Below are positions 22,997 to 32,307 of a stretch of 64,000 nucleotides of DNA, one piece after another. Source of the stretch: Echinicola strongylocentroti (GTDB lineage: Bacteria; Bacteroidota; Bacteroidia; Cytophagales; Cyclobacteriaceae); assembly GCF_003260975.1 (NCBI RefSeq), contig NZ_CP030041.1, forward strand, positions 3,271,001 through 3,335,000. Direction: 5' to 3'. The first letter of the stretch is position 1. The number at the start of each line of letters is the position of its first letter. Below the pieces are notes generated by a model. That model was not told the DNA's origin. It did no database searches and saw only the letters and a program-made list of their open reading frames with translations. The position numbers were made by a program, and so were the translations under genes.

Positions 22997-25836
22997 ATGT
23001 CGAAAACAGTAGCAGTAGTAGAAGAAAAAATAGAGATATACGGTGCGCGAGAGCACAATCTCAAAAATATAGACTTATCGATCCCGAGAAATAAACTGGT
23101 GGTCATCACCGGCCTCAGTGGAAGCGGCAAGAGTTCGTTGGCATTTGACACCATCTATGCCGAAGGACAACGCCGTTATATGGAGAGTTTTTCTGCCTAT
23201 GCCAGGTCTTTCCTTGGTGGAATGGAGCGGCCTGATGTAGACAAGATCAACGGACTTTCCCCGGTCATTTCGATAGAACAAAAAACCACGAGCAAAAATC
23301 CCCGATCTACAGTAGGCACCGTTACGGAGATTTATGACTTTATGCGTTTGCTGTATGCCCGGTCCGGGGAAGCTTACAGTTACCTTTCGGGCAAAAAAAT
23401 GATCCGCCAAACAGAAGACCAGATCATTGACCAACTATTGACGCATTTTGCTGGAAAAAAACTTTATATCCTGGCACCAGTGGTAAAAGGCCGAAAAGGA
23501 CATTACAGAGAGCTCTTCGAGCAAATCCGAAAAATGGGTTTTTCAAAAGTCCGTGTAGATGGCGTGGTGATGGAAATGGTGCCCAAAATGCAAGTGGACC
23601 GCTATAAAATCCACGATATCGAAATCGTCGTGGACAGGATCTTTGCCGAAGAAGAAGACCGATACCGCATTACCCAATCCCTGAAAACAGCATTACAACA
23701 CGGAAAAGGGATCATCATGCTGCGTGATGAAGAGGGTGAGATCCATCACTTCTCAAAATACCTAATGGACCCTACCACTGGGCTCTCCTATGATGAACCA
23801 GCTCCCAATACATTTTCCTTTAACAGTCCCTATGGAGCTTGCCCGACCTGCAAAGGCATTGGCATCATCGAAGAGATCACTAAAGAAAACATCATTCCCG
23901 ACCCCAGTCTGAGCATCTCCAGGGGAGGGATTGTGCCCATTGGCGAGTATCGTGACATCTGGATATTTAAGAAAATAGATGCTATTCTAAAGCGTCACCA
24001 AGCCAGCCTTTCCACTCCTATCAAGGACTTAAAAGAAGAGGTCCTGGATGTACTCCTATATGGTGACAAAGCTGCCGTAGAAGTAGATTCGGTCAAGTAC
24101 CCTGGCACCAAATGGAGCACCACCTTTGAGGGTATCGTCAACTTCCTGCAAAAACAGCAGGAAGGGGGATCAGAAAAAATCCAAAAATGGGTCAGCGACT
24201 TCACCACCAACAGGGAATGCCCTGACTGTAATGGCTACCGACTGAAAAAAGAAGCCTTGCACTTTATGATTGCCGGTAAGCATATCGGTGAGCTTTCCAT
24301 GATGGACATTCAGCAGCTGGGCCATTGGTTTGACCAAATCGACGATAAGCTCACCGAAAAGCAAAAAATCATTGGCGAGGAAGTACTTAAGGAGATTCGA
24401 AAACGAATCGGCTTTCTCTTGGACATTGGGCTGGATTACTTATCCCTGAACAGGCCTCTTCGTACCCTTTCGGGGGAGAAGCCCAGCGTATCCGACTAGC
24501 TACGCAAATAGGCACACAGCTAGTGGGAGTGCTCTACATTTTGGACGAACCCAGTATCGGCCTTCACCAACGAGACAATGTCAAACTCATCAAAGCCCTC
24601 CAAGATCTTAGAGACTTGGGCAATTCCGTTCTCGTCGTGGAGCATGATAAAGACATGATGCTGGATGCGGACTTTGTAGTGGACATAGGCCCAGGAGCGG
24701 GACGACATGGAGGACATATCGTGGCCCAAGGTACTCCAAAAGAAATGCTAGCGCAAAATAGCCTTACGGCCAAATACCTGAACGGGATGGAAGAAATTGC
24801 CGTTCCCGACACCAGAAGAACAGGAAGTGGCAAGCTTCTGAAGCTCCACCAAGCGAGCGGCCACAACTTGAAAAATGTAGATTTGGAACTGCCTCTGGGA
24901 AGCATGATCTGCGTAACCGGTGTCTCCGGAAGTGGCAAAAGCTCCCTGATCCATGAAACATTATTCCCGCTGCTCAACCAGCATTTTTACCGATCCAGAA
25001 AGAGCCCATTACCCTATGGCAGTATAGAAGGGCTGGAGCACCTTGATAAGGTGATCGAAGTGGACCAGTCCCCCATCGGAAGGACGCCACGGTCAAATCC
25101 CGCGACCTACACCGGGGTATTTACCGATATCCGAGCCTTGTTCACAGAACTGCCCGAAGCAAAAATCCGTGGCTACAAGCCCGGCAGGTTCAGCTTTAAT
25201 GTCAAAGGTGGACGATGTGAAGATTGTGAAGGGGCGGGCATGAAGCTGATCGAAATGGACTTCCTACCGGATGTTCACATTCCTTGCGAAACCTGCAAAG
25301 GGAAGCGCTACAACAGGGAAACACTGGAAGTGAGATTTAAAGGAAAGTCCATCTCTGATGTGCTCGACATGACGGTAGAGCAAGCAGTGGAGTTTTTTGA
25401 AAACCAACCTAAAATCCTCCGGAAAATCAAAACCTTAAACGATGTAGGGCTAGGTTATATAACACTGGGGCAGCATGCCACTACCCTCTCCGGAGGCGAA
25501 GCCCAGCGTGTAAAACTCGCTACAGAGCTCTCCAAAAAAGACACAGGAAAAACCTTCTATATCCTTGATGAACCCACCACAGGATTGCACTTTAAGGATA
25601 TAGAACACCTGCTGGAGGTACTTAATAGGTTAGTGGACAAGGGCAACACCGTGCTCATCATCGAGCATAACCTGGATGTGATCAAAGTCGCCGATCATAT
25701 CATCGACTTAGGCCCAGAAGGAGGCAACAAGGGCGGTCAAATCCTAACACAAGGAACACCAGAAGCTGTCGCCCAGCATCCGTCCAGTTACACGGCCAAG
25801 TTCTTGCAGCTGGAGTTATCATCAAGTAATTCGTAG
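22997..25836 (+). pseudogene. uvrA: Excinuclease ABC subunit A, frameshifted
   Basis: UvrA, the damage-recognition ATPase of nucleotide excision repair, about 946 residues when joined. The first frame (22997-24499) has Walker A GLSGSGKSS, zinc-module cysteines CPTCKG and CPDCNG, and ends ...[16 protein letters not shown]. The second (24523-25836) resumes with [18 protein letters not shown] and contains the second Walker [26 protein letters not shown] and [12 protein letters not shown]. The ABC signature of the first half should read [21 protein letters not shown]; inserting one G in the five-G run at 24472-24476 restores it exactly. All other features are intact, so a base-call error is likely. 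Confidence 0.9.
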
Positions 25837-27872: not shown

Positions 27873-28026
27873 AGAAAAAACGTTGTTTTTTAGTTGCTTT
27901 TCTGGATTAATATTCTCATTTTCAGTTAAAAAAAGTATAAAAGTTTATTAAACTATTGAATTCATTTATAAAAAGTATTCATATAAACCGTAAACTTCAC
28001 CAAATATAGACCAACCACACGATAAT

Positions 28027-28779
28027 ATGAAAGAAGAAAGAATACTGGTTGTAGAGGACGATCCGGACATTGCTGAAAACATAGAGGAAATCCTCGAACT
28101 TTTAGGATATGTCAATATCGACATTGCCAATTCTGCTAATCAAGCTATTAAGGTGATCAAAAAATACCGGCCAGACTTGGTATTTATGGACATCAAGCTG
28201 AAAGGTGACAAGGACGGTATTGAGCTAGGGGAAATCATCCAGCAAATGGTGGATGCACCGATTGTTTACGTTACTTCTTATAGTGACCCCAGCATCATCG
28301 AGCGCGCCAAGCGTATTCACCCTGCTGGGTTTATCGTAAAGCCGTTTAATACCAATGATATTCATGCGATCGTTGAAATCGTCCTGTACAACAGACGGAC
28401 ACAAACGACGAGCTCAGAATCGCCAAAGCCTAGTGCCGAGAGCCCCTATTTGGTGGCGGATGCTGTCTATATCAAATCGGATAATGCTTATGAGCGCGTG
28501 GATTACGGTGACATCTATTACGTGGAGGCCAACGGAAACATGGTGTCCATTTTTACCAAAAACAAAACCTATACCATACGCAAGTCCATGAAAGAAATGG
28601 AGGAAAAACTTCCTTCCAATCTTTTCTTGCGTGTTCAAAAATCCTACATCGTCCAACTCGGGCAGATCGCAAGCTTCAGCACCAAAGAGATCAACCTCAA
28701 GGACGGTGCAGTTGTTCAGGTGGGCCGCCAGTATTACAACAGTTTCTTGGCCAAACTGAACACCATTACAGAGAGTTAA
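28027..28779 (+). CDS. LytTR family response regulator (second)
   Basis: 250 residues: receiver domain with VEDDPDIAENI and phosphoacceptor Asp55 in LVFMDIKLKGDKDGIELG, followed by a linker rich in Ser/Thr and a LytTR domain (about 145-248, VYIKSDNAYERVDYGDIYYVEANGN). The receiver is of the subclass with the GDKDGIEL loop and is not a close copy of the one in the upstream regulator. It is separated from it by 154 AT-rich bases and is probably transcribed on its own. No kinase lies next to it on the 3' side. Confidence 0.9.
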   Translation: MKEERILVVEDDPDIAENIEEILELLGYVNIDIANSANQAIKVIKKYRPDLVFMDIKLKGDKDGIELGEIIQQMVDAPIVYVTSYSDPSIIERAKRIHPAGFIVKPFNTNDIHAIVEIVLYNRRTQTTSSESPKPSAESPYLVADAVYIKSDNAYERVDYGDIYYVEANGNMVSIFTKNKTYTIRKSMKEMEEKLPSNLFLRVQKSYIVQLGQIASFSTKEINLKDGAVVQVGRQYYNSFLAKLNTITES

Positions 28780-28810
28780 GCAGCTTTAGTTAGTAAATCA
28801 TAGACCCAAA

Positions 28811-28837
28811 AAAAGCCTCCACTTGTGGAGGCTTTTT
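28811..28837 (+). terminator. Rho-independent terminator
   Basis: AAAAGCCTCCAC and GTGGAGGCTTTTT form a nearly perfect stem with a two-base apex and a T-run. It ends the second LytTR regulator and isolates the ATPase-PIN module that follows. Confidence 0.85.
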
Positions 28838-28876
28838 CGTTGGTAAAATCCCCTCTTAATTAAATAAAGATTTAAA

Positions 28877-28907
28877 TTGAAGCCGTCTTTTCGTTTTCTT
28901 ATATTTA
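28877..28907 (+). promoter_or_regulatory. Promoter of the ATPase-PIN module
   Basis: TTG at 28877-28879, 20-bp spacer, TATATTTA at 28900-28907 (one mismatch to TAnnTTTG). The ATPase start codon is 19 bases downstream, as in the TPR-gene promoter. Confidence 0.5.
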
Positions 28908-28926
28908 TGAATGAAATTAAGCACCA

Positions 28927-30228
28927 ATGATACAGTCCTTTAAAATTAAGAACTTTAAAAGCTATCGTGAAGCAGAACTGACACTTGCACCTTTGACTGT
29001 CATGATCGGTGCCAATGCCTCTGGAAAAAGTAATGCCATTGAAGCTGTACGTTTCTTAAGCTGGATAGCACAAGGACAAAAGCTTTCGAGTTTACAATTT
29101 GAGATTAACAAAAGTGATACGGCAATAAGAGGCAAAATTGGGGATTTAATACATAAAGGCTCTTCATTCTTTTCTATTGGCTGTACAGTTCGGGATAATA
29201 AAGAAGACAAAATATGGAATTTAGCTATTGATTTAGCTATTCGTGACAATAAAGAAATTCATATTTCCAAAGAATCAATAGAGAATCAAAAAAATGGTGA
29301 AGTTTTATACAAAAGTACAAAACCAACCGATGGACCTGCTACCGAGATTTCAGTAGCATATAATAATTTTGCAAGAGGAGGTAAAAAACCACAGGTGATC
29401 TGTTCAGACCAGCTGGGTATATTTACCCAACTTACACGAAAAGGGATATTTCCTACAAGCCATAAAACTTCACGTTTAAAGATTCCGCACGTTACTCAAT
29501 TAACAGAAGGGCTACTTAAATCTATACTGTTTTTAGACCCGTCTCCTCAGTCTATGCGCGAATACAGTTTTATTGATAGCAATGGACTTTTAGGAAATGG
29601 AAGTAATATTTCAGCTGTACTTTTTCAACTCATTGAAAACAATTCGGACAATAAGATTGCCTTACTGAGTTTTATTAAGAGTCTTCCGGAACAGGATATT
29701 TCTGATATAGGTTTTTTGAAAGGGCCTAGAGGAGAAGTTATGCTAACGTTGACAGAGACTTTTGGGGGGGATCGACGAGAAATTGATGCCGGTAACTTAT
29801 CAGACGGAACACTTCGAGTATTGGCTATCGGAGCAGCGTTATTATCTGCTCCAGAAAATGGAATGGTTATTATCGAAGAAATTGATAACGGAGTACATCC
29901 TAGCAGAGCTGAAGAGCTTTTAAGCAATATCAGTGAAACAGCTAAACGGAGGAATCTAACGATTTTGCTGAGCACTCATAATCCTGCATTAATGGATGCT
30001 GTTCCTTCAAGTGCAATACAGGATGTGGTCTTCTGCTATAGAGACAAAAAAGACGGAACATCTAAGCTTATCTCGCTTAAGGATGTTCCGGATTATCCTG
30101 AGCTTATCATTCAAGAAAGCTTAGGAGATTTGGTTACCAAAGAAACATTATCCCGATATGTAAAGAGCCAAGAAAATGCTGATGAAAAAGTCAAAAAAGC
30201 ACTCAATTGGCTGGAATCTATAAAATAA
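28927..30228 (+). CDS. AAA_21/OLD-like ATPase of a two-gene module
   Basis: 433 residues, an ABC-type (RecF/SMC-like) ATPase: the start MIQSFKIKNFKSYREAELTL is the classic first strand, Walker A is GANASGKSN (28-36), the signature is LSDGTLR (291-297), Walker B MVIIEEIDN (313-321) and the H-switch is STHNP (349-353). There is no TOPRIM or other nuclease domain in the chain, unlike OLD proteins. The next gene, six bases downstream, encodes a PIN-type nuclease, so ATPase and nuclease are probably partners. By eye the module is more A/T-rich than its neighbours and uses more AT-ending codons, which suggests horizontal acquisition (not computed). Related pairs act in phage defence; that role is an inference. 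Confidence 0.8.
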   Translation: MIQSFKIKNFKSYREAELTLAPLTVMIGANASGKSNAIEAVRFLSWIAQGQKLSSLQFEINKSDTAIRGKIGDLIHKGSSFFSIGCTVRDNKEDKIWNLAIDLAIRDNKEIHISKESIENQKNGEVLYKSTKPTDGPATEISVAYNNFARGGKKPQVICSDQLGIFTQLTRKGIFPTSHKTSRLKIPHVTQLTEGLLKSILFLDPSPQSMREYSFIDSNGLLGNGSNISAVLFQLIENNSDNKIALLSFIKSLPEQDISDIGFLKGPRGEVMLTLTETFGGDRREIDAGNLSDGTLRVLAIGAALLSAPENGMVIIEEIDNGVHPSRAEELLSNISETAKRRNLTILLSTHNPALMDAVPSSAIQDVVFCYRDKKDGTSKLISLKDVPDYPELIIQESLGDLVTKETLSRYVKSQENADEKVKKALNWLESIK

Positions 30229-30234
30229 TTTTTT

Positions 30235-30687
30235 ATGTCTAAACCCATTATTTGGCTTATTGATACTTCCATAATAACCAATATTCTTGATATTCCGGGA
30301 CGTAATCAAGATAGGTCGAATGTGAAAGGCGATTTTGAAGACCGGATCAGAAATAGAGATAGCTTTTTTTTGCCCTATGTTACTTTAGTAGAAACAGGAA
30401 ACTTTATAGCACAATTAAGTGGAAACCTAAAGAGGGATAAGTCTCTTGAATTTGCCAATCAGGTCAAATTAGCATTGAACAACCAAGCTCCTTGGAAGCC
30501 ATTAAGGTTTCCTGAAAAGGAGTCTTTACTCCTCAATATAGATAAGTTCCCAGATTATGCTTCAAGAGGAATAGGTTTTGGAGATTTTTCCATCATTCAA
30601 GATTGGGAGGAACAAAAAAATATCTTTAAAGCTTATTCAGTTAAAATATGGTCTCTGGATGAGGGACTGTGTGGATATGAATCATAG
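30235..30687 (+). CDS. PIN-domain nuclease of the ATPase-PIN module
   Basis: 150 residues. The PIN active site acidic set can be placed: Asp10 in WLIDTSI, Glu53 in LVETGNF, Asp117 in GFGDFSI, and Asp142 in SLDEGL near the C terminus. PIN domains are metal-dependent RNases; in toxin-antitoxin modules they cut tRNA, rRNA or mRNA. No small DNA-binding antitoxin precedes it; the upstream partner is a 433-residue ATPase, so this is not a VapBC pair. It may be the effector activated or restrained by the ATPase. The family was recognised from motifs only. Confidence 0.7.
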   Translation: MSKPIIWLIDTSIITNILDIPGRNQDRSNVKGDFEDRIRNRDSFFLPYVTLVETGNFIAQLSGNLKRDKSLEFANQVKLALNNQAPWKPLRFPEKESLLLNIDKFPDYASRGIGFGDFSIIQDWEEQKNIFKAYSVKIWSLDEGLCGYES

Positions 30688-30720
30688 AAGGGTAGAAAAA
30701 TGATTCATCTACCCTTCTAT
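30684..30720. other. Hairpin between convergent genes
   Basis: ATAGAAGGGTAGA and TCTACCCTTCTAT form a 13-bp perfect stem with an 11-base loop, overlapping the stop codon of the PIN gene. No T-run follows on either strand (A-run on the plus side), so it may stabilise 3' ends more than terminate. Confidence 0.5.
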
Positions 30721-30735
30721 AAAAAGCAAGAAAAT

Positions 30736-32103
30736 TTATAACAGCTCATTTGCCAAGTTGGCCAATTCAGACCGTTCTCCTTTTTCCAACTTGATATGCG
30801 CATAAAGAGGGTGGTCTTTGACGCGGTCGATCAGGTAGGAAAGCCCGTTACTTTGGCTGTCCAGATACGGGGTGTCGATCTGGTAAACATCACCCGTAAA
30901 GACTATTTTGGAATTTTCACCTGCTCGGCTGATGATCGTCTTGATTTCATGCGGGGTGAGGTTTTGGGCCTCGTCCACAATGAAGAATATATTGGACAAT
31001 GACCTTCCCCGAATGTAGGCCAATGGCTGGATAACCAGTTTTTCCTGATTGACCATTTCCGTGATCTTCTGGTATTCCTTGTCGGATTCCTTGAATTGGT
31101 TTTGGATAAACTTCAAGTTGTCCCAAAGCGGCTCCATATACGGGTTCAGCTTCGACTTGATGTCACCGGGCAGGTAACCGATGTCCTTATTGCTCAAGGG
31201 AACGATGGGTCTGGCCAAGAATATCTGCTTATAATCTCTCCTTTGCTCCAGAGCCCCAGCCAAAGCCAGCAAGGTCTTACCAGTACCGGCCACTCCCTGT
31301 ACTGATACCAACTTGATATTGGGATTGGTGATGGCATGTAGGGCAAAGGTTTGTTCTGCGTTCTTAGGCTTGATATTATAAGCTAATTTTTTGTCCACCC
31401 TTTCGATGGTGTTGTCTTCTCCATTATAGAAGGCCAAGACAGAGTTCTTATCACTTTTAAGAATATAAAACGTATTCGTTTTGCGCTTGCGGGTGCCAAG
31501 GACTTTTTTGGCCTCGACGGCGCGGTTTTCATATAGCTCATTGATCACGTCAGGATTGATCCCTTCGAGGACATCCTTGCCGGTGTTTTCCAACTCTGTG
31601 ATGTTTTTGATTTTCCCCGTCTCATAATCCTCCGCTTGGATATCAAGGGATTTTGCCTTCAGTCGCAGGTTGATGTCCTTGCTTACCAGAATGACCTTCC
31701 GGCCATTTTCACTGGTCTTGAGATCCAGGGCTGCATTGAGGATTTTATGGTCATTTTTCTCCTCACCAAAGATCGTATTGGCATTTACTTGCTCAGGCTC
31801 GCCATTACTGTCATTGGTGGTCATCATGACCTTAAAGTTGCCCTTGGTCTTTCCATTCAGTGGGGTCCATTTGTGGATCATCTTGTCCTTGGAAAGATTG
31901 TCAAGCAACCGAATAAACTCTCTCGCCTCGAAGTTTTTGGAATCATTGCCTTTCTTGAACTGGTCCAGCTCTTCCAGTACCGTGATCGGAATCACGACAT
32001 CGTGCTCGGCAAAGTTCATGATGGAATTGTGGGCATAAAGGATGACCGAAGTGTCCAAAACGAAGATCTTACGGTCACTGTCATTTTTTTTAGCTCTTGG
32101 CAT
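30736..32103 (-). CDS. PhoH family protein (PIN plus PhoH ATPase)
   Basis: 455 residues: N-terminal PIN domain (about 10-150; IFVLDTSVILYAHN, DHKILNAAL, VILVSKDINLR) fused to a PhoH-like P-loop ATPase (about 245-455) with Walker A GVAGTGKTLLALA and Walker B IFFIVDEAQNL. This is the PhoH2/YlaK-type architecture, a putative RNA helicase-nuclease. It is unrelated to the neighbouring small PIN gene beyond the shared fold. Monocistronic. Confidence 0.9.
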   Translation of the reverse strand: MPRAKKNDSDRKIFVLDTSVILYAHNSIMNFAEHDVVIPITVLEELDQFKKGNDSKNFEAREFIRLLDNLSKDKMIHKWTPLNGKTKGNFKVMMTTNDSNGEPEQVNANTIFGEEKNDHKILNAALDLKTSENGRKVILVSKDINLRLKAKSLDIQAEDYETGKIKNITELENTGKDVLEGINPDVINELYENRAVEAKKVLGTRKRKTNTFYILKSDKNSVLAFYNGEDNTIERVDKKLAYNIKPKNAEQTFALHAITNPNIKLVSVQGVAGTGKTLLALAGALEQRRDYKQIFLARPIVPLSNKDIGYLPGDIKSKLNPYMEPLWDNLKFIQNQFKESDKEYQKITEMVNQEKLVIQPLAYIRGRSLSNIFFIVDEAQNLTPHEIKTIISRAGENSKIVFTGDVYQIDTPYLDSQSNGLSYLIDRVKDHPLYAHIKLEKGERSELANLANELL

Positions 32104-32307
32104 AGGCGAAAAAGGTTAGTGATTTAAGTCAATAATAAGATAGCCATTTATCTATTGGATTGCCATATTTTTAAGTAAAATTGAGCAAGCCAGATAAGAA
32201 CGATTCTTTAAATCACTGGGGATCAAAGAGAATGATTTTTCAATAATTTTCACTGGTAAATATTACATATCTATCAATGAGTTGCTGCGCTAATGATTAA
32301 GCATTTC

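Follow-up and report, generated by a model that had tools for sequence, protein, structure and literature searches.

The window analyzed here, a stretch of 64,000 nucleotides of the Echinicola strongylocentroti genome whose numbering is used throughout, carries a real and well-bounded module of two genes, encoding an ABC ATPase and a PIN protein, and this module belongs, as a free-standing copy, to the candidate system catalogued as PDC-M07. The pair probably acts as an anti-phage module in which the ATPase restrains the PIN protein, senses a phage product and frees the PIN protein to cut host RNA. The first-pass annotation of this DNA had taken the pair for a candidate undescribed defense system. 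That claim is ruled out by the listing of both proteins in PADLOC-DB, as PDC-M07A and PDC-M07B, and by the pairs of OLD-ABC ATPases with PIN proteins described in the accessible text of PMC12839542; the kind of system is already known, and no functional test of it was found in the literature searched.

Architecture and composition of the module

The first gene (28927 to 30228, forward strand) encodes a 433-aa ABC ATPase of the OLD/Rad50-SMC type, the proposed sensor and regulator, and is followed on the same strand, after a gap of six bases, by the gene for a VapC-like PIN protein of 150 aa (30235 to 30687, forward strand), the proposed ribonuclease effector, with the acidic residues D10, E53, D117 and D142. 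This confirms the first-pass description of an ATPase lacking a nuclease domain and, six bases further on, a PIN protein with all four acids. Its placing of the pair between a terminator and a hairpin also held, as both borders fold strongly. On the left, a terminator-like hairpin (28806 to 28843, forward strand) lies 3' of the upstream LytTR response-regulator gene, the fold of 28800 to 28850 reaching -20.3 kcal/mol (z -5.4, equaled by none of 200 shuffles); on the right, a hairpin with a 13-pair stem (30684 to 30720, forward strand) lies 3' of the PIN gene, the fold of 30684 to 30730 reaching -18.4 kcal/mol (z -7.9, again equaled by none of 200 shuffles). Both hairpins were missed by the terminator scan. 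By eye, hairpin-like repeats also occur 3' of the LytTR response-regulator gene in relatives, and an inverted repeat similar to the right-hand hairpin is found 3' of the PIN gene in G402, a genome of the same genus.

The first-pass annotation gave the pair its own promoter. Bacteroidota promoters follow the consensus TTG-N(19-21)-TAnnTTTG, and a candidate promoter close to it was found upstream of the ATPase gene (28877 to 28907, forward strand), with TTG at 28877 and TATATTTA at 28900, nearly identical in the G402 copy; sigma-70-type matches did not exceed chance in the promoter scan.

The impression that the pair is richer in A/T than its surroundings was borne out by a GC check, which gave 36.6% for the pair versus 44.8% for the window, a value below those of all 1,173 stretches of equal length in the window that lie clear of the pair (sampled every 50 bases). 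With the lowest GC in the window and a patchy presence in the genus (2 of 11 genomes), the module has probably been acquired, as the first-pass annotation had supposed. An Rfam search of 28000 to 32200 gave no match, no tRNA gene was found within the window, and no integrase or transposase was recognized among its ORFs.

Protein families, known systems and linkage of the two genes

The ATPase matches the PDC-M07A model PDLC04392 of PADLOC-DB 2.0 (2023) over residues 1 to 432 of 433 with an E value of 2.6e-186, while the next family, HEC-01A, is reached at 1e-34, with AbiLi and mad3 also among the next-best models. Models of AriA match it at 5.5e-30 and 6.1e-20, far under PDC-M07A, and the scores are 618 bits for PDC-M07A versus 103 bits for AriA. 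In Pfam the ATPase matches AAA_21/AAA_15; there is no TOPRIM family among its matches and no fused nuclease domain within the 433 aa, and its catalytic motifs are invariant. The predicted fold lies nearest to Rad50/SMC heads and to PtuA in a structure search, and AriA chains are absent from the 50 structural matches listed, which does not count against a resemblance to AriA. For the PIN protein, only PDC-M07B models match in PADLOC-DB (PDLC04395, E value 7.1e-51, residues 6 to 149 of 150), and the best structural neighbors of its predicted fold are VapC toxins, headed by VapC20, a cutter of the sarcin-ricin loop. Pfam and NCBIfam assigned no family to the window's PIN protein, the PIN profile had no match among PDB sequences at E values up to 1, and a PHROGs search returned nothing informative; among its aligned relatives, at E values up to 1, 12 of 29 touch PIN_12 and 10 of 29 touch PIN. 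A read-through model of the ATPase and the PIN protein yielded each domain, with no bearing on an interface between the two, and in the joint alignment that was folded the last 13 or so ATPase residues are misplaced in every printed row except the window's own.

OLD-ABC systems were reportedly surveyed by Krishnan et al. in 2020. Near BREX, such ATPases are paired with other nucleases, including PIN endoRNases, in 594 taxa, according to the accessible text of PMC12839542, which cites earlier surveys. The PDC candidates are attributed to Payne et al. (bioRxiv, 2024) in the accessible text of PMC12988326, which describes most PDCs as unvalidated; neither the name PDC-M07 nor an experimentally tested defense pair of ATPase and PIN protein was found in the literature searched. 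The window's pair matches both the M07A ATPase and the M07B models over nearly their full length, and its genes are adjacent on the same strand (an adjacency rule is assumed for the system); no difference from PDC-M07 was seen.

Several known systems resemble the pair in part. Like PARIS (AriA-AriB), the pair appears to combine an OLD-type ABC ATPase with a small separate nuclease, an arrangement reported near BREX (accessible text of PMC12839542), but the partner has a PIN fold in place of the TOPRIM nuclease AriB. It resembles Septu and retron-Eco7 PtuAB in the predicted PtuA-like fold of its ATPase, whereas PtuB is an HNH nuclease and the partner here is of the PIN fold; by eye, no reverse transcriptase was recognized among the ORFs beside the pair. 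OLD nucleases carry a fused TOPRIM domain, which the window's ATPase lacks. VapBC has the PIN fold and the four acids in common with the pair, but the adjacent partner is here a 433-aa ATPase and not a small antitoxin, and no VapB-like antitoxin was seen between the PIN gene and its neighbors, whether as an ORF of at least 80 aa or, by eye, as a shorter one. Membership of PARIS, of Septu, of the fused-TOPRIM OLD nucleases and of VapBC is in each case ruled out by the absence of the defining partner. DefensePredictor DS-5 is likewise a two-gene defense system that needs its PIN catalytic residues, and is set apart by its description in the accessible text of PMC13092281, where the partner is a DUF5830/AcrIF4-like protein and not an ATPase.

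Models of AbiL, HEC-01 and MADS3 stand for the next tier of similarity to the ATPase. Of the 17 next-tier ATPase loci (L018 to L034), 12 have a two-gene layout with a further gene downstream (within 150 bases, on the same strand), one of these being a probably spurious ORF. The partners scanned there were DUF4276 in 6 of 7, five of them above Pfam's cut-off, whereas the partner here is a PIN protein, which indicates that related ATPases go with different effectors.

Far from occurring mostly apart, the ATPase and PIN genes are nearly inseparable and move as a unit. Among 395 genomes of the window's phylum (Bacteroidota, G000 included), the PIN gene was found in 13, with the ATPase adjacent at all 13 places, and the same 13 genomes give the 13 best ATPase matches, down to a broken copy at 1.2e-55; the next ATPase genome (G248, 3.5e-47) has it in two pieces and without PIN. 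G407 is the genome that holds an Acetobacteraceae locus; in its phylum the PIN gene occurs at 16 places in 14 of 398 genomes (one of these places, L100, is the same locus as L003), and the ATPase lies within 85 bases at 15 of the 16, the lone PIN (L124) being truncated. Both proteins find the same eight plasmid records, the ATPase at 1e-50 and the PIN protein at 1e-5, and the genes are adjacent in every one. Three genome-contig loci have both genes, one of them (L002) with a broken PIN frame, and the PIN gene is adjacent to the ATPase at 5 of 6 viral-contig loci, the sixth being a weak match. ATPase pieces without PIN were found at two loci (L083, L084), and a search of 50,697 phage records with the ATPase at 1e-20 gave no match.

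Close relatives retain both active sites. A PIN match was found at 43 loci; with five broken or cut-off PINs set aside, 32 of the remaining 38 have all four acids intact. The acids on which the first-pass annotation laid weight are largely kept, while six loci are deficient. These comprise three with H for D142, one with Y for D10 (on a cyanobacterial plasmid), one that is truncated and one that lacks both E53 and D117. The three H-for-D142 proteins belong to viral-contig pairs (L087, L088 and L089), with ATPase identities of 34 to 36%, which perhaps form a separate branch. The PIN protein without E53 and D117 (L128, 7894 to 8364) has an intact ATPase as its neighbor, and its genome (G456) holds another pair whose PIN keeps all four acids.

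Genomic context, proposed mechanism and alternative explanations

In relatives, the pair is found inside defense operons of several kinds. It is embedded in BREX operons in the orders PglX-[pair]-Orf5-PglZ-BrxL (L079), BrxC-[pair]-PglX-Orf5-PglZ (L120) and BrxC-[pair]-PglXI (L130), and one island (L077) holds PglX, NsnA, NsnB, NsnC, the pair, one further gene, PtuA and PtuB. The order HsdM-HsdS-[pair]-HsdR was seen in three plasmid records from Vibrionaceae (two share the name pAQU1), where the ORFs at the junctions of the pair overlap by 4 to 7 bases except for one ATPase-PIN gap of 13 bases. At L075, a PDC-S02-type gene, an HNH enzyme and a type I restriction enzyme lie within about 9 kb downstream. 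The neighbor proteins at L075, L077, L079, L120 and L130 were picked by eye, and these loci serve as examples. The ATPases of L120 and of the Vibrio plasmid match the ATPase profile at 1e-168 and 1e-180, respectively, the latter with 51% identity, and by score both belong to the window's own branch. Nitrogenase-like genes (by eye) lie beside the pair in two genomes of the window's phylum, at L075 and L076, at L075 on the side opposite the restriction and defense genes.

The window's copy sits outside any BREX or restriction operon, with a LytTR response regulator on one side and PhoH on the other. Among the ten ORFs around it, Pfam matches include UvrA, His_kinase, LytTR, PhoH with PIN_4, and tRNA-synt_1c (glutamyl/glutaminyl-tRNA synthetase family); none of the ten looks like a defense gene, since in PADLOC only UvrA and the ABC-transporter ATPases gave hits, as cross-matches to mad3/mad8. 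Seven relatives with similar ATPases (L001, L003, L071 to L074 and L081) have equally ordinary neighborhoods, as judged from 39 of their 51 neighbor ORFs: the 25 listed of 34 families matched one ORF each, mostly through the kinase model PD-T4-6, and these matches are probably to a generic kinase. The defense role suggested by the first-pass annotation is probable, given that the two genes seldom occur apart, that close relatives keep the acids and that related pairs are embedded in operons for BREX and for type I restriction; the neighborhood of the window's copy counts against it. A plain stress or RNA-processing role, in which the pair would be a mere passenger in the defense operons elsewhere, would suit the window's neighbors (histidine kinase, LytTR regulators, PhoH, UvrA and the glutamyl/glutaminyl-tRNA synthetase family) but is highly improbable given the patchy presence, the low GC, the occurrence on both plasmids and viral contigs, and the places in several kinds of defense operon.

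The best reading of the pair is a probable abortive-infection module on the plan of PARIS or PtuAB, its effector being a PIN ribonuclease; complex formation, the trigger, the RNA target and abortive infection are what we infer. The proposed sequence of events is as follows: (i) the ABC ATPase would form a dimer or larger ring that keeps the PIN protein inactive; (ii) the ATPase would sense a phage product, which for embedded pairs might be one directed against the surrounding restriction or BREX machinery; (iii) ATP-driven opening would then activate or release the PIN nuclease; (iv) the PIN protein would cut host tRNA or rRNA, using metal held by its four acids; and (v) translation would halt, so that the phage would not multiply. 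There are precedents for these steps in the accessible text of the respective reports: AriA of PARIS sequesters AriB, a tRNase (PMC12409363), retron-Eco7 PtuAB depletes tRNA-Tyr, its toxicity needing the ATPase (PMC11555353), and defense by DS-3 and DS-5, both of which bear a PIN protein, depends on the catalytic residues (PMC13092281).

A possible, if on balance doubtful, extension of this scheme is that PDC-M07 is a PIN-armed counterpart of PARIS whose ATPase guards restriction and BREX systems, senses phage anti-restriction proteins and in response sets a VapC-type RNase to work on tRNA or rRNA; a single lineage of ATPases would have swapped DUF4276 and PIN effectors, and stand-alone copies, the window's among them, would be portable guards of restriction systems elsewhere in the genome.

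Two further explanations compete with an abortive-infection module. The toxin-antitoxin-like alternative already raised by the first-pass annotation is the weaker reading and, in our view, unlikely: the pair would be an addiction or plasmid-stability module in which the ATPase, as the antidote, keeps the PIN toxin in check the way VapB does VapC, and whose loss is harmful. The PIN fold is that of VapC toxins, pairs occur on plasmids, including conjugative ones and a mobilizable one of 9.1 kb, and the layout of two overlapping or nearly touching ORFs is like that of toxin-antitoxin operons. However, the pair is absent from 9 of 11 genus members, and at L072 the ATPase frame is broken beside an open PIN gene, although that PIN carries a deletion; PIN without ATPase is thus perhaps not lethal, which argues against a simple antidote role. 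A 433-aa ATPase with invariant catalytic motifs is also large for a mere antidote, and embedding in BREX and restriction operons points to defense, though both functions may coexist. The mobilizable plasmid (L095, from Acinetobacter), on which the pair makes up 2 of 11 annotated coding sequences, also has a gene for a RelE/ParE-type toxin.

PIN-like folds include DNA flap nucleases. A DNA-targeting complex, with the ATPase loading on invading DNA like Rad50/SMC heads and the PIN protein cutting DNA, would agree with this and with the predicted ATPase fold, which is closest to those heads and to PtuA, and Septu PtuAB is reported to target nicked phage DNA (accessible text of PMC11555353); this explanation is nevertheless quite improbable, since the best structural neighbors of the PIN protein are VapC toxins, with VapC20 on top, and VapC cuts tRNA (accessible text of PMC13092281).

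Bacterial immune systems that combine an ATPase with a nuclease form a growing class. The abortive-infection reading, if true, would mean that the same sensor chassis can accommodate a VapC-type RNase, which would tie abortive infection to the large family of PIN toxins. Because relatives are embedded in operons of BREX and of type I restriction, a guard role can be tested directly, and two short genes of 1.8 kb in all are easily moved into a laboratory strain.

Insertion site and history in the genus

The LytTR response-regulator and PhoH genes (identified by Pfam) are adjacent in all 11 genus genomes examined, and the pair occupies the gap between them in two, G000 and G402. Neither gene of the pair was found in this gap, about 66 to 1,037 bases long, in the other nine. 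Insertions are tolerated at this site: at L061 (6967 to 7997), L062 (7742 to 7997) and L066 (5366 to 5669), the same gap holds some 262 to 1,037 bases of other DNA, and no ORF longer than 103 aa was found inside the L061 gap.

The closest homologues, in an Echinicola soli record, are 88% (ATPase) and 79% (PIN) identical. A tree of five flanking genes groups G402 with G399 and then with G404, both of which are without the pair, and leaves G000 outside; this topology implies either two or more gains of the pair or a single gain followed by at least two losses. In the comparison with G402, dN/dS is 0.12 for the ATPase and 0.065 for the PIN gene, low values that place both genes under purifying selection. 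The dS values (ATPase 0.54, PIN 1.85, flanks 1.11 to 1.51) favor neither one gain with losses nor two gains, as their directions conflict. That dS lies under the flanks in the ATPase gene and over them in the PIN gene (28927 to 30684) may reflect an exchange within the pair, or noise.

The PhoH gene (30736 to 32103, opposite strand) has an N-terminal PIN_4 domain of its own (Pfam 5e-35); with PhoH present in all 11 genus genomes, its nearness to the acquired PIN gene is probably due to chance. Further upstream, uvrA (22997 to 25836) is split into two ORFs of 500 and 437 aa where G404 has a single ORF of 946 aa (L061, 948 to 3788), a frameshift in a housekeeping repair gene that is either real or a sequencing error.
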